A stretch of 21,378 nt of DNA from a virus. Both the position numbers and the translations under genes were made by a program. Under the pieces are notes generated by a model. That model made no database searches, had not been told where the DNA came from, and worked only from the letters and a program-made list of their open reading frames with translations. Each line of letters begins with the position of its first letter. Position 1 is the first letter of the stretch. Below, piece after piece: positions 3,525-21,378 of this stretch. The DNA lies in the IMG/VR virus record IMGVR_UViG_3300042304_000172, positions 1 through 21,378 of that record; one strand, 5' to 3'.

Positions 3525-3956
3525 TACTTTTGTGGTGGTTAGTTCAATAGAGAACCCGTAGTCGTCTACGGCAATGTGGGAATCGAATCCCTCACCATCG
3601 CACCAATCTACCCCTTGAGACTACCAACGAGTGTTGACTAGCCGCGCTACTATTATCCTGTGAGGTTTTTAAAAGTGACCAGACACGGGATCAATAGGGC
3701 AAAGGGGAATCCCTTTTCTCAGTAAATCTCCCGCGCCTCTCAATGATGCGTAATTCGGGAGGTATCCCTTTCTCATCCACAATGGATGGAAATCGTCCAC
3801 AAATAATAAAAGGACGACCGTCGTAACCTTGAAAGCAAGGACTAGGCCCAGTACGCTGGACAACCGATTGTTCTCTTTAGGCAAGAAAAGATAGTCGAAC
3901 ATAAAAAACACGGACATCGTTTGTTAAACCTAAAAAACTAAAAATAGAATAATTAT
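3525..3956 (+). other. Structured non-coding interval upstream of the capsid gene
   Basis: About 430 bases without a credible gene, in a genome otherwise packed with coding sequence. It holds a tRNA-like cloverleaf (3532-3605) and then a chain of local hairpins: AAAGGG/CCCTTT (3701-3706 with 3711-3716), CTCCCG/CGGGAG (3728-3733 with 3756-3761), ATCCA/TGGAT (3775-3779 with 3783-3787), TCGTCC/GGACGA (3793-3798 with 3812-3817), CCTTG/CAAGG (3827-3831 with 3836-3840) and CCAG/CTGG (3848-3851 with 3856-3859). The last 50 bases are A-rich and lead to the capsid ATG. It would lie in the 5' leader of the capsid mRNA and may be a processing or stability element. Confidence 0.6.
3532..3605 (+). tRNA. 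tRNA-like cloverleaf, possibly degenerate; isotype not assignable
   Basis: The acceptor stem GTGGTGG (3532-3538) pairs over 7 bp with CCATCGC (3595-3601), followed by A and an encoded CCA. The D stem is GTTC/GAAC (3542-3545 with 3552-3555). The anticodon stem is CCGTA/TACGG (3556-3560 with 3567-3571). The T stem is GTGGG/CCCTC (3576-3580 with 3589-3593, one mismatch) with the TCGAAT core in its loop. Oddities: the anticodon loop has 6 bases (GTCGTC, possibly reading CGT after U33), the T loop has 8, and position 26 is missing. The G.U pairs in the acceptor favour the + strand. It may be a decayed tRNA or a tRNA mimic cleaved by host RNase P within the late transcript. The cloverleaf is seen; the function is inferred. 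Confidence 0.5.
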
Positions 3957-17969: not shown

Positions 17970-19643
17970 ATGCAACAAGTTCCCAATCAACTTAAAGACT
18001 TTAGAAACTTCCTGTACCTTTGCTGGAAACACCTGAAGCTCCCCGATCCAACACCCATTCAGTACGAAATCGCTGACTGGATGCAACATGGCCCCAAGCG
18101 GGCAGTCTTGCAAGGCTTTCGGGGCGTTGGGAAATCTTGGATCTGTTCGGCTTACGTTGTCCACCAGTTGCTCCTTGATCCCTCTAAGAACATCCTTGTG
18201 GTCTCTGCGTCTAAGACTCGTGCCGATGACTTCTCTACGTTCACGTTGAGGTTGATCCACGAAATGCCGATGTTGGAACACCTAAAGCCCACAGACAAAC
18301 AACGGTTCTCTAAAATATCCTTTGATGTTGGGCCAGCCCCTGCATCCCACGCCCCCTCTGTGAAGTCCCTAGGGATCACCTCGCAGCTCACAGGTTCCCG
18401 TGCTGACATCATTGTGGCCGACGACGTGGAAGTCCCAAACAACTCAGCAACCCAGTCGCTTCGGGATAAACTTGGGGAACAAGTGCGAGAGTTCGAGGCT
18501 ATCCTTAAACCCCTTAAGTCATCACGGATCTTGTTTCTTGGGACTCCCCAGTGTGAAGACTCGATCTACAACAAGCTGATTGAACGGGATTACTCGTGTC
18601 GTGTTTGGCCTTCTAAGATCATCACGGTTGCCAAGAACGAGAAGTCCTACAACAGCAACGTAAGTGCCTCGTGTGTCGATGACGCTCGTGAGGGACTTCC
18701 AAGTGAACCTCTTAGATTCTCTGAGCTAGACCTTGCTGAACGTGAGGTGTCCTATGGTCGCACAGGGTTTGCCATGCAGTTCATGCTTGATCCTAAGCTC
18801 TCTGACTTGGATAGGTATCCCCTAAAGATCAACGACCTGATTGTGATGGACATCGACAGGGACAAGGCTCCTGAGAAACTTGTGTGGGCTCAAACACCTG
18901 ACCTCATGTGGGACTCATCGGTTCCTAACGTAGGCTTCACGGGTGATCGCTTCTATCGACCCTTCAGGACTATTGGTGACCATGTGGACTACCAAGGCTC
19001 CGTGTTGTCTATCGACCCGTCTGGACGTGGTAAGGATGAAACAGCTTGGGCAGTCGTGAAGATGCTCAATGGATACCTGTACGTCAGCGAGTTCGGAGGT
19101 CTACAAGGAGGCTACGGTGCTGACGTGTTGAAGACCCTCGCCCTTAAGGCTCACCATCACAACGTCAACGAGATCATTGTGGAGTCCAACTTCGGTGATG
19201 GGATGTTCACGGAGATCTTTAAGCCTTACCTTGAGAAAGTCCACCCGTGTTCCATCAAGGAAGTCCGTCACAGCACCCAAAAGGAGAAACGTATCGTGGA
19301 CACCTTGGAACCCGTGATGAACCAACACAGACTTGTGTTCGACCCTAAGTCCATCAAAAGGGACTACGAGTCTTGCTCGGTGTACCCAACGGACTCCCAG
19401 CTTCGCTACCAGTTGATGTACCAGTTGTCACGGATCACAAGAGACCGTGGTGCGTTAACCCACGATGACCGCTTGGATGCCCTTGCAATCGCTGTAGCCT
19501 ACTGGGCAGAACACATGGCCCAAGATGCCAATAGGCGCATCGATGACCGCAAGGATGACCTCTTGAAGGAGGAACTCACAAAACTTGCAGACTCTTACTT
19601 CAAACGAACCAACAATCAACGTAATCTAAACCAATGGATGTAA
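17970..19643 (+). CDS. Large terminase subunit (T7 gp19-like), ATPase and nuclease
   Basis: 557 aa, against 586 aa for T7 gp19. It is the motor that drives DNA into the procapsid and cuts it. The N-terminal ATPase has a Walker A at residues 49-56 (GFRGVGKS), a Walker B at about 147-154 (IIVADDVE) and a coupling motif LFLGTP at 188-193. The C-terminal nuclease has SIDPSGRGKDETAW (Asp349), a conserved IIVESNFGDG (Glu405) and HDDRLDAL (Asp500, Asp503), all expected metal ligands of the RNase H-like nuclease. AGAAGGA about 11 bases upstream is a plausible ribosome-binding site. Third codon positions look more G/C-rich than in the internal virion genes. The last 10 bases overlap the amidase gene. 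Confidence 0.97.
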   Translation: MQQVPNQLKDFRNFLYLCWKHLKLPDPTPIQYEIADWMQHGPKRAVLQGFRGVGKSWICSAYVVHQLLLDPSKNILVVSASKTRADDFSTFTLRLIHEMPMLEHLKPTDKQRFSKISFDVGPAPASHAPSVKSLGITSQLTGSRADIIVADDVEVPNNSATQSLRDKLGEQVREFEAILKPLKSSRILFLGTPQCEDSIYNKLIERDYSCRVWPSKIITVAKNEKSYNSNVSASCVDDAREGLPSEPLRFSELDLAEREVSYGRTGFAMQFMLDPKLSDLDRYPLKINDLIVMDIDRDKAPEKLVWAQTPDLMWDSSVPNVGFTGDRFYRPFRTIGDHVDYQGSVLSIDPSGRGKDETAWAVVKMLNGYLYVSEFGGLQGGYGADVLKTLALKAHHHNVNEIIVESNFGDGMFTEIFKPYLEKVHPCSIKEVRHSTQKEKRIVDTLEPVMNQHRLVFDPKSIKRDYESCSVYPTDSQLRYQLMYQLSRITRDRGALTHDDRLDALAIAVAYWAEHMAQDANRRIDDRKDDLLKEELTKLADSYFKRTNNQRNLNQWM

Positions 19644-20284
19644 AAACAAGTATAACAAAGATCGCCGAGTCACTACTACCCCCATACGGAGTCTCTAAGG
19701 GGTCTAGGAGGCCTTTGGTTGCTCTTTGTGTAGGTCACAGTCGAAAAGGGGATAGCGGGGCTTCTAGCGTCTCTGGAGCCTCAGAGTGGACTTACAACCA
19801 AAAGATCACTGAGTTCCTTAGGATGGACTTGGAGAAACGTGGGATCAACTGTGTGGTCTTTACTCACTACGATGGCCAAGGGTACGGAGGGGCCATGACG
19901 TGGATCACTGCTCAACTTGAGTTACTTAAGGTGGACTTTGCGGTGGAACTTCACTTCAACTGTGCCGATAACGTGTTGGCTAAGGGCTACGAGTTCCTTT
20001 ATTGGGTCAACTCAAGGAAATCCAAGATCATCGCGGATACCTTTGGGGAAGTCTTCAAGAAGAACTACCCAGACCTCTTGAATAGAGGAAGCAAGGGGCT
20101 GACCAAGGACGACCGTGGTGCTTTGTTTGTAAGACTGCCATCGATGCCCTCGGTAATCCTTGAGCCATTCTTCGGAAGCAACAAGCGTGAGTGGGAGATC
20201 TTCGGTAACGAAGTAGGTCAGAAAGATCTTGCTAGATCTTACGGTGATGCCATTGAGGTGAGTTGTCGATCCTTGGGCCTCTAG
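19634..20284 (+). CDS. Endolysin: zinc-dependent N-acetylmuramoyl-L-alanine amidase (Amidase_3 family)
   Basis: 216 aa. It should cleave the bond between MurNAc and the stem peptide of peptidoglycan during lysis. The metal ligands of the LytC/AmiC-type fold are visible: His35 in LCVGHSRKGD, Glu51 in GASEWTYN and His107 in AVELHFNC. Glu177 in VILEPFFGS is the catalytic acid. There is no signal peptide, so release depends on the holin. T7 itself uses a different amidase family (gp3.5) in the early-middle region, so this is a non-T7 endolysin placed right after the terminase. It overlaps the terminase by 10 bp (ATG within CAATGGATGTAA) and is likely translationally coupled. Confidence 0.93.
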   Translation: MDVKTSITKIAESLLPPYGVSKGSRRPLVALCVGHSRKGDSGASSVSGASEWTYNQKITEFLRMDLEKRGINCVVFTHYDGQGYGGAMTWITAQLELLKVDFAVELHFNCADNVLAKGYEFLYWVNSRKSKIIADTFGEVFKKNYPDLLNRGSKGLTKDDRGALFVRLPSMPSVILEPFFGSNKREWEIFGNEVGQKDLARSYGDAIEVSCRSLGL

Positions 20285-20763: not shown

Positions 20764-20991
20764 ATGATCTCCTTGGCTGAAGTCGAATATTCTAACAACT
20801 GTTTGAATCCTGAGAGTTCCTCATCGGAGATCGTGGATACTGCTGTGAAGTTCCTTGAAAAGAGCTTCAAAGGCTTCGTGTTGACCGTGGTTGATGACAA
20901 CGACAATCAATACACAGCCACGAATCTTGAGAATCTTGAGGCTTTTGAGGTGATCGACACGATGCTTGATGTCTTAAATGAGGATCCTTGA
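20764..20991 (+). CDS. Small acidic hypothetical protein (75 aa)
   Basis: I do not recognise it. The product has about 16 Asp/Glu and 3 Lys/Arg, hence strongly negative, with VVDDNDNQ in the middle and VIDTMLDVLNEDP at the end. No membrane segment or signal is visible. It is the only ORF of gene-like size between the endolysin and the window end, flanked by non-coding DNA on both sides. If the genome terminus lies at 20285-20763, this would be the first gene of the left (early) end, where T7 has its anti-restriction DNA mimic gp0.3. That parallel is position and charge only. No Shine-Dalgarno sequence precedes the ATG (TTCTCCGTATG). Confidence 0.55.
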   Translation: MISLAEVEYSNNCLNPESSSSEIVDTAVKFLEKSFKGFVLTVVDDNDNQYTATNLENLEAFEVIDTMLDVLNEDP

Positions 20992-21084
20992 GGTGTTCTT
21001 AAGAATTTGGTGAAAAAATCTGTTACACTGACGTTATGATTCGGGCCGGTGAATACCCCCATTAGGGCACTCAAATCGCTGTTT

Positions 21085-21214
21085 GGACGCCGACGGCACC
21101 GCAGGCCGCCAGAATGCCTTAGATACTACAGCATCTGCGGGACTCTCCAAGTGTCTAGTGAGGTGAAACAAGGGTCGTTTTGAGATGGTCGATCCTTGTT
21201 AGCCGGAGGCGTCC
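21085..21214 (+). ncRNA. Candidate structured non-coding RNA (three-way junction), family unknown
   Basis: A closing helix pairs GGACGCC (21085-21091) with GGCGTCC (21208-21214). It continues through a tandem G.A mismatch into CGGC/GCCG (21094-21097 with 21202-21205). Inside are CCGCAG/CTGCGG (21099-21104 with 21135-21140), extended by ATGC/GCAT (21114-21117 with 21131-21134), and an 11-bp stem AACAAGGGTCG/CGATCCTTGTT (21167-21177 with 21190-21200). The joints between the closing helix and both inner helices are single As, which suggests stacking. The one G.U pair and the tandem G.A favour the + strand. It matches no riboswitch, ribozyme or tmRNA I know. A downstream hairpin (21219-21233) could end the transcript. 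Confidence 0.55.
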
Positions 21215-21218
21215 TTAT

Positions 21219-21247
21219 TGAGAATGGTTCTCATTAGTGCATTTTTG
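21219..21247 (+). terminator. Weak terminator-like hairpin after the structured RNA
   Basis: TGAGAA/TTCTCA forms a 6-bp stem around TGG. A T-run (ATTTTTG) follows about 8 bases later, not directly, so termination would be inefficient. Its place just after the structured RNA makes it the natural 3' end. Confidence 0.3.
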
Positions 21248-21264
21248 AGTTTTGTCCCCGTTTT

Positions 21265-21287
21265 GATTTTTTACTGTATGCACAAAG
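21265..21287 (+). promoter_or_regulatory. Candidate phage promoter motif (TTTTTTACTGTA)
   Basis: GATTTTTTACTGTATGCAC shares the ACTGTA core with the two other intergenic sites. It lies upstream of the repeat-encoded ORF at 21301. Motif similarity is the only support. Confidence 0.22.
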
Positions 21288-21297
21288 TAAATACCAA

Positions 21298-21378
21298 GGG
21301 ATGACCAAGGGGAGACCAGAGGGGAGACCAGAGGGGAGACCAGAGGGGAGACCAGAGGGGAGACCAAGAGGAGACCAA
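21298..21378. repeat. 12-bp tandem repeat GGGGAGACCAGA
   Basis: Four perfect copies start at 21309, 21321, 21333 and 21345. Degenerate copies follow at 21357 (ending AAG) and 21369, and a degenerate unit precedes (GGGATGACCAAG). The array is cut by the window end, so total length is unknown. The purine-rich unit looks like a product of replication slippage. Confidence 0.95.
21301..21378 (+). CDS. Possible ORF start encoded by 12-bp repeats (3' truncated by window end)
   Basis: From the ATG at 21301 the frame stays open to the window end. It reads MTKGRPEGRPEGRPEG, two further repeat units, then RGDQ. The repeat length (12 bp) is a multiple of three, so expansion would keep the frame. The N-terminus is strongly basic and low in complexity. 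The start lies inside the repeat array itself and has no good ribosome site (AAGGG is immediately adjacent), so it may be accidental. Basic tails ending in RGD-type motifs occur at the start of some phage HNH endonucleases, but nothing downstream is visible to test that. Confidence 0.3.
   Translation, partial: MTKGRPEGRPEGRPEGRPEGRPRGDQ

Follow-up and report, generated by a model that had tools for sequence, protein, structure and literature searches.

What is the 130-nucleotide stretch at 21085-21214, close to the right end of a 21,378-nucleotide viral DNA fragment (IMG/VR record IMGVR_UViG_3300042304_000172; this whole fragment is hereafter the window)? The original prediction was a structured RNA of no recognised kind, built around a three-way junction and situated near the presumed early region. 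Comparison with related phages suggests instead a T7-like (autographivirus) phage whose terminal direct repeat very probably contains the stretch, with the concatemer junction directly to its left.

The predicted RNA fold in the window and in its homologues

The minimum-energy RNA fold of 21085-21214 indeed comprises a closing helix, a bulged stem and an 11-bp stem, with -53.3 kcal/mol and z -2.97, the latter a value for bounds that were picked after the sequence had been seen. The four helices are thus present as originally described. Two inverted repeats lie in the stretch, one of 13 nt at 21085-21097/21202-21214 (85% complementary, carrying the GA/GA step) and one of 11 nt at 21167-21177/21190-21200 (91% complementary). 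However, the fold is not exceptional: among 654 130-nt tiles that cover both strands of the window, 1.5% had z <= -2.9. The minus strand of the stretch gave z -2.62, and therefore the folding signal is not strand-specific. For the wider stretch 20992-21300 the z value was -0.31, and 37 of 100 shuffles folded equally well. With cmscan, Rfam gave no match in 20992-21300 up to E 5; a tRNA/tmRNA search also gave none.

Homologues were collected by a terminase search of IMG/VR and by blastn of the region, which yielded ten further distinct phages, 69-91% identical where alignable, so that the locus is present in 11 phages including the window. Their alignment is a patchwork of highly conserved blocks between stretches that do not align, and RNAalifold found no consensus structure on it. 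The mean z of the 11 phages was -0.65 on the plus and -0.60 on the minus strand, or about -0.4 on either strand with the window left out. L003, a relative with 90% identity, departs from the window at only two of the 45 pairs, both times by a one-sided change, and has AA in place of the 3' GA of the GA step. Across the nine other relatives, 49% of cells were paired in the closing helix, 42% in the inner helix and 56% in the bulged stem, as compared with 26-46% in slid-partner controls. The 11-bp stem did better (63%; L009 100%, L008 91%, L007 89%), although it was poorly kept in several homologues (36% in L011 and L006). In L008 and L009 this stem is re-formed with a different sequence. Over the whole alignment the window structure paired 67.1% of cells versus 62.7% in column shuffles, and two-sided changes numbered 32 cells versus 20, an excess that comes in part from the window, from which the structure itself was derived, and its close relative L003.

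Taken together, the phages do not conserve the three-way junction as an RNA, and a hairpin at 21167-21200 is possible in some of them. What remains of the pairing signal comes mostly from that one stem, and the headline claim of a structured RNA is not supported. The RNA fold appears to be mostly incidental to a GC-rich sequence with inverted repeats. Since it is not common to related phages, the stretch is probably ordinary as RNA.

A conserved, probable left-end signal upstream of the stretch

The strongest conserved block at this locus is CTTAAGAATTTGGTnnAAAAATCTGAAAGGGTATACG, followed by CCCCC about 33 nt after TCTG, and it lies upstream of 21085-21214. It was also found in distant relatives (terminase identity down to 73%) and in another phage group, in each case with the late genes on one side of it and the early region on the other. 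The features of the locus are as follows.

20998-21022, plus strand: conserved left-end signal CTTAAGAATTTGGTGAAAAAATCTG; its T3 counterpart CTTTAAGAATTTACCACAAAAATCTG is at the mapped genome end
21014-21022, plus strand: AAAAATCTG core, part of the conserved signal
21023-21030, plus strand: 8-nt spacer TTACACTG from TG to the predicted cut
21031, plus strand: position where, judged from homologous phages with mapped ends, the mature genome and with it the left copy of the terminal repeat are predicted to begin
21056-21060, plus strand: CCCCC tract, 33 nt after TG and 25 nt after the predicted cut, as in T7 GTTCCCCCATAGGGGG
21031-21272, plus strand: presumed terminal direct repeat of about 242 bp, with the left end placed by the signature and the right boundary a guess
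21085-21214, plus strand: stretch under study, predicted terminal-repeat positions 55-184; fold not conserved as a whole
21142-21154, plus strand: dyad ACTCT-CCA-AGTGT, then TCTAGTG; ACACT-NNN-AGTGT in most relatives in the alignment of 11 phages
21167-21200, plus strand: 11-bp stem, weakly supported; no other helix retains some of its pairing where the sequence changes in other phages
21216-21246, plus strand: palindrome TATTGAGAA-TGG-TTCTCATTA, then a T run; below the threshold of the terminator scan
21298-21377, plus strand: 12-bp tandem repeats GGGAGACCAGAG, adjoining the repeat; other units occupy the same place in relatives

About 45 phages have the signature AAAAATCTG-N33-CCCC where the terminase gene meets the early region, and the TG-to-CCCC spacing was 32-35 nt in all 46 aligned junctions. 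AAATCTG-N30-35-CCCC occurs once in the window, where 0.04 occurrences are expected. The window spacer departs from the AAAGGGTA of most relatives. Additional matches to the core pattern in L103 and L104 were attributed to chance. Among the roles first suggested for the stretch, that of a packaging signal points to the right place, next to a concatemer junction of the T7 type; what is conserved as a signal, however, is the upstream DNA at 20998-21060 and not the fold.

Agreement with phages of known genome ends

The genome left end lies exactly 8 nt after TG in T7, T3, Syn5 and P-SSP7. T7 and T3 (NC_001604, NC_003298) resemble the window in carrying the signal between the terminase gene and the early region, with AAAAATCTG, 8 nt to the end and CCCCC a further 25 nt on. 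Across the T7 genome end the sequence is AAAAATCTGAGTGACTA to the left and TCTCACAG..GTTCCCCCATAGGGGG to the right; at the right junction of T7, ATAAAAATCTGAGTGACTA is followed by TCTCACAGTG at genome base 1 and by GTTCCCCCATAGGGGG 25 nt later. The T3 genome end falls between TTTAAGAATTTACCACAAAAATCTGAATGGGTA and TCTCATAG, with the annotated repeat at 37978, and T3 TTTAAGAATTT..ACAAAAATCTGAATGGGTA matches CTTAAGAATTT..ACAAAAATCTGAAAGGGTA of the relatives. Unlike the window, T7 and T3 have an otherwise unrelated repeat with CCTAAAG-type repeats and the end CTCTRTGTGTCCCT, whereas the window has ACACT-NNN-AGTGT, TCTAGTG and the 12-bp repeats. CTAGTG is also found in the terminal repeats of T3 and LUZ100.

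P-SSP7 and Syn5 (NC_006882, NC_009531) share the signature and the 8-nt spacing with the window but infect a different host, and their repeats are otherwise unrelated in sequence. The Syn5 cut was placed from a published repeat length that we take to be 237 bp. The junctions of Syn5 and gh-1 agree with the signature, with a spacing of 7 nt in gh-1, and the Syn5 repeat also holds TTATTGAGAAT. P-SSP7, the ends of which were sequenced directly from virion DNA (PMC3350473), agrees to the base: AAATGTCTGAGGTCATA is followed at the cut by TATACG..AAAAACCCCC, that is, TCTG, AGGTCATA and then TATACG..CCCCC. Its genome starts with TATACG, like the window's relatives.

The nearest named phage by TerL (72.9%), Ayaqvirus S45C18 (AP013544), has the junction AAAAATGTGAAGGGGTATAAATCG..ATCCCCCC and a different repeat body. 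LUZ100 (OP329100, PMC10134795) is T7-like with 57% TerL identity and shows AAAAATGCG-N33-CCCCCC, a 244-bp terminal repeat and termination sites at the repeat; it differs from the window in that its annotated repeat starts 20 nt rather than 8 nt after the signal and is GC-rich and unrelated. AAATGCG-N33-CCCCCC is present in both LUZ100 and RHEph01. The deposited CRP-227 genome is opened at the left-end signal, and SP6 retains the C-tract part only. A blastn search with the window's repeat gave no match in the phage collection.

A sequence-only model was trained on 31 junctions, among which the window, T7, T3, gh-1, Syn5 and HTVC011P were not included. It matched the window at 20998-21060 (E 2.8e-6) and T3 at 37945-38009 (E 7.2e-8), where it spans the start of the annotated repeat. 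The window also gave a weaker match at 19650-19688 (E 0.0014), which extends over only half of the model. In nearly all other whole records one site was found; G006 carries two at a distance of 38.8 kb, or one genome unit, which is what a contig exceeding that length should show. T7, gh-1, Syn5, LUZ100 and HTVC011P escaped the full model in the genome search, and these phages match in a direct comparison of the short signature and its spacing only.

Gene context and extent of the presumed terminal repeat

The order of genes is terminase, amidase, small ORF, junction, tandem repeats and early genes with an integrase, as seen in L008, L014 and L001; the window stops to the right of the repeat. 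The original placement of the stretch near the early region was correct; it lies between the late genes and that region. TerL, encoded at 17970-19643, has full-length matches to T7-like maturase B proteins, with 73% identity to Ayaqvirus S45C18. To the left of the junction, 20764-20991 encodes a 75-aa ORF with 41-52% identity in relatives and no significant Pfam or PHROG match.

As a 21.4-kb fragment, the window record holds a single copy of the junction, and the direct repeat itself is not visible in it. Known terminal repeats are 160 (T7), 206 (P-SSP7), 217 (gh-1), 231 (T3), 237 (Syn5) and 244 bp (LUZ100) long; with such lengths, most or all of 21085-21214 would belong to the repeat. The right ends of T7 (CCCT/ATCTGTT) and P-SSP7 (AAGCG/ACCTGTT; slashes mark the ends) are without a clear counterpart in the window, in which ACTGTATGC at 21273 weakly resembles right-end T7 ATCTGTTAC and P-SSP7 ACCTGTTGC. 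Contig ends gave no consistent marker of the right boundary, with L011 ending 250 bp after the cut and others disagreeing. The 12-bp tandem repeats, similar to short repeats that flank the terminal repeat of T7, are the probable reason for contigs breaking here.

We infer the following mechanism. During replication, genomes would be joined end to end through the terminal repeat. Terminase would then cut the concatemer at a fixed distance from AAAAATCTG (21014-21022), 8 nt on at 21030/21031, to produce the left end, with CCCCC lying 25 nt after the cut. The stretch 21085-21214 would correspond to bases 55-184 of the mature genome and recur at the other genome end. The conserved DNA elements (cut signal, C tract and ACACT-NNN-AGTGT/TCTAGTG) are plausibly read by packaging proteins.

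Elements inside and beside the presumed repeat

In the dyad at 21142-21154 the half-sites are fixed and the centre is variable. Taken as a small hairpin, it was 87% paired in the nine relatives, and four of its five pairs were without any change. It reads as a DNA site rather than a hairpin because the stem pairs do not vary; the dyad together with TCTAGTG is thus a candidate protein-binding DNA site, which the sequences fit better than a hairpin.

The palindrome at 21216-21246 may end transcription. In L004 and L006 it is replaced before the T run by unrelated palindromes (CCTTAGT..CTAAGG). A consensus scan passed no sigma-70 promoter or intrinsic terminator, unusual promoters being outside its reach. 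The upstream motif was also considered as a phage RNA polymerase promoter, but a late promoter of this kind would recur and the motif was found just once in the window. Long-range CCCCC/GGGGG pairing, inspected by eye (e.g. in L007, L004 and L008), had no consistent partner in all phages. Two further candidates, a boxA element as in rRNA leaders and a GGA-loop site for CsrA (GCC-GGA-GGC), were set aside.

Several palindromes were observed in this region and in other phages. That at 21216-21238, TTATTGAGAATGGTTCTCATTAG, was likewise noted in Syn5 (L116), L053, L074 and L087; a terminator or the dyads of Fur boxes are what it looks like. The Syn5 repeat holds two copies of TTATTGAGAATC, and palindromes similar to TTATTGCAAGTTAGTTGCATTAG are present in the junctions of other phages. 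A further palindrome at 21276-21294, GTATGCACAAAGTAAATAC, has GTATTCACTTTGTAAATAC-like versions at the same position to the right of the junction in many relatives (L025, L027, L032, L055, L077 and L079), sometimes in several copies, and may be an operator with which the early region begins.

Alternative readings of the locus

Could 21085-21214 nevertheless yield a discrete structured RNA with a three-way junction, such as a small RNA or an RNase decoy? The minimum-energy fold at its exact bounds, and the excess of pairing and two-sided changes over shuffles and slid controls, would be in keeping with this. However, one of the compared sequences was itself the source of the structure, the residual signal is mostly that of one stem, no consensus structure emerged and the homologues have z near zero on both strands. 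A sigma-70-like promoter, a strict terminator and an Rfam match are all lacking. In LUZ100, the transcripts of which were mapped by long reads (PMC10134795), the annotation has no promoter in the terminal repeat or anywhere between the late-region end and P1, which is to the right of the repeat. We consider such an RNA very improbable. Even less credible is that the conserved motif at 21000-21035 is a host sigma-70 early promoter (TTGGTR-16-TATACG) driving RNA from the repeat: the motif does resemble a weak promoter in relatives, but the window lacks TATACG, the promoter scan found none, and T3 and T7 carry the same motif at their mapped DNA ends while their early promoters are elsewhere. It is because of this location in T7 and T3 that the promoter reading was dropped.

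It is less easy to dismiss that the repeat acts partly as RNA, with late transcripts forming the 21167-21200 hairpin and/or the 21216-21236 palindrome with its T run and thereby pausing or stopping RNA polymerase, in a manner comparable to the pause site at the T7 concatemer junction. The re-formed 11-bp stem in L008 and L009, the exchanged palindromes in L004 and L006, and the LUZ100 termination sites T21 and T22, which are annotated at or in the terminal repeat, all point this way. On the other hand, the terminator scan was empty at its threshold, the 11-bp stem is missing in several homologues such as L011 and L006, and the mean homologue z is near zero; we therefore regard this as unlikely, with a small but real chance. 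A more elaborate form, in which the junction element beyond the cut signal (ACACT-NNN-AGTGT with TCTAGTG, the covarying hairpin at 21167-21200 and the exchangeable palindrome before the T run) acts partly as RNA and the folding of late transcripts couples the stop of transcription to packaging, seems to us improbable. The terminal-repeat reading explains the locus as a conserved DNA landmark, which was mistaken for RNA because the stretch is non-coding, GC-rich and filled with repeats. Counting against it are the unusual spacer of the window, the single junction copy in the record, the five phages missed by the full model, the 20-nt distance in LUZ100 and the partial signature in SP6.

Assemblers lose or circularise the ends of T7-like genomes. 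The portable signature AAAAATCTG-N8-cut-N25-CCCCC, which held for T7, T3, Syn5, P-SSP7 and tens of metagenomic phages, places the physical left end in uncultivated T7-like phages. We found no earlier statement of a general left-end signature in the open-access papers searched.

An abiF-type RNA upstream of the major capsid gene

Elsewhere in the window, cmscan detected an abiF RNA (RF03085) at 3727-3763 on the plus strand, 194 bases upstream of the major capsid gene (34.7 bits, E 0.0055). Counterparts are present in relatives (L138 854-890, L135/L136 953-991, L125 971-1007 and L126 963-998), and that of L138 passes the curated cut-off. Their outer stem varies with its complementarity kept, and the loop core GCCUCUCAAxGAUGC is also kept. 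A run of about 50 C directly follows the abiF RNA in L138 (near 891) and in L139, possibly as an assembly artefact. One abiF RNA of C. difficile acts in trans to neutralise the AbiF toxin (PMC12373285). A search for Abi_2 (PF07751) in 45 viral records, comprising the window and 44 others with such sites, gave no match. A phage abiF RNA without the toxin gene could therefore serve as a decoy, which makes the abiF-type RNA a candidate orphan antitoxin RNA against AbiF defence. A pattern scan of IMG/VR revealed at least 65 distinct abiF-type hairpins with complementary outer stems; in unrelated viral contigs (loci L205-L322), at least 60 distinct ones have covarying outer stems and apparently no AbiF gene beside them. 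One relative, L127/L128, carries an exact abiF core at 753-776 without the usual outer stem.
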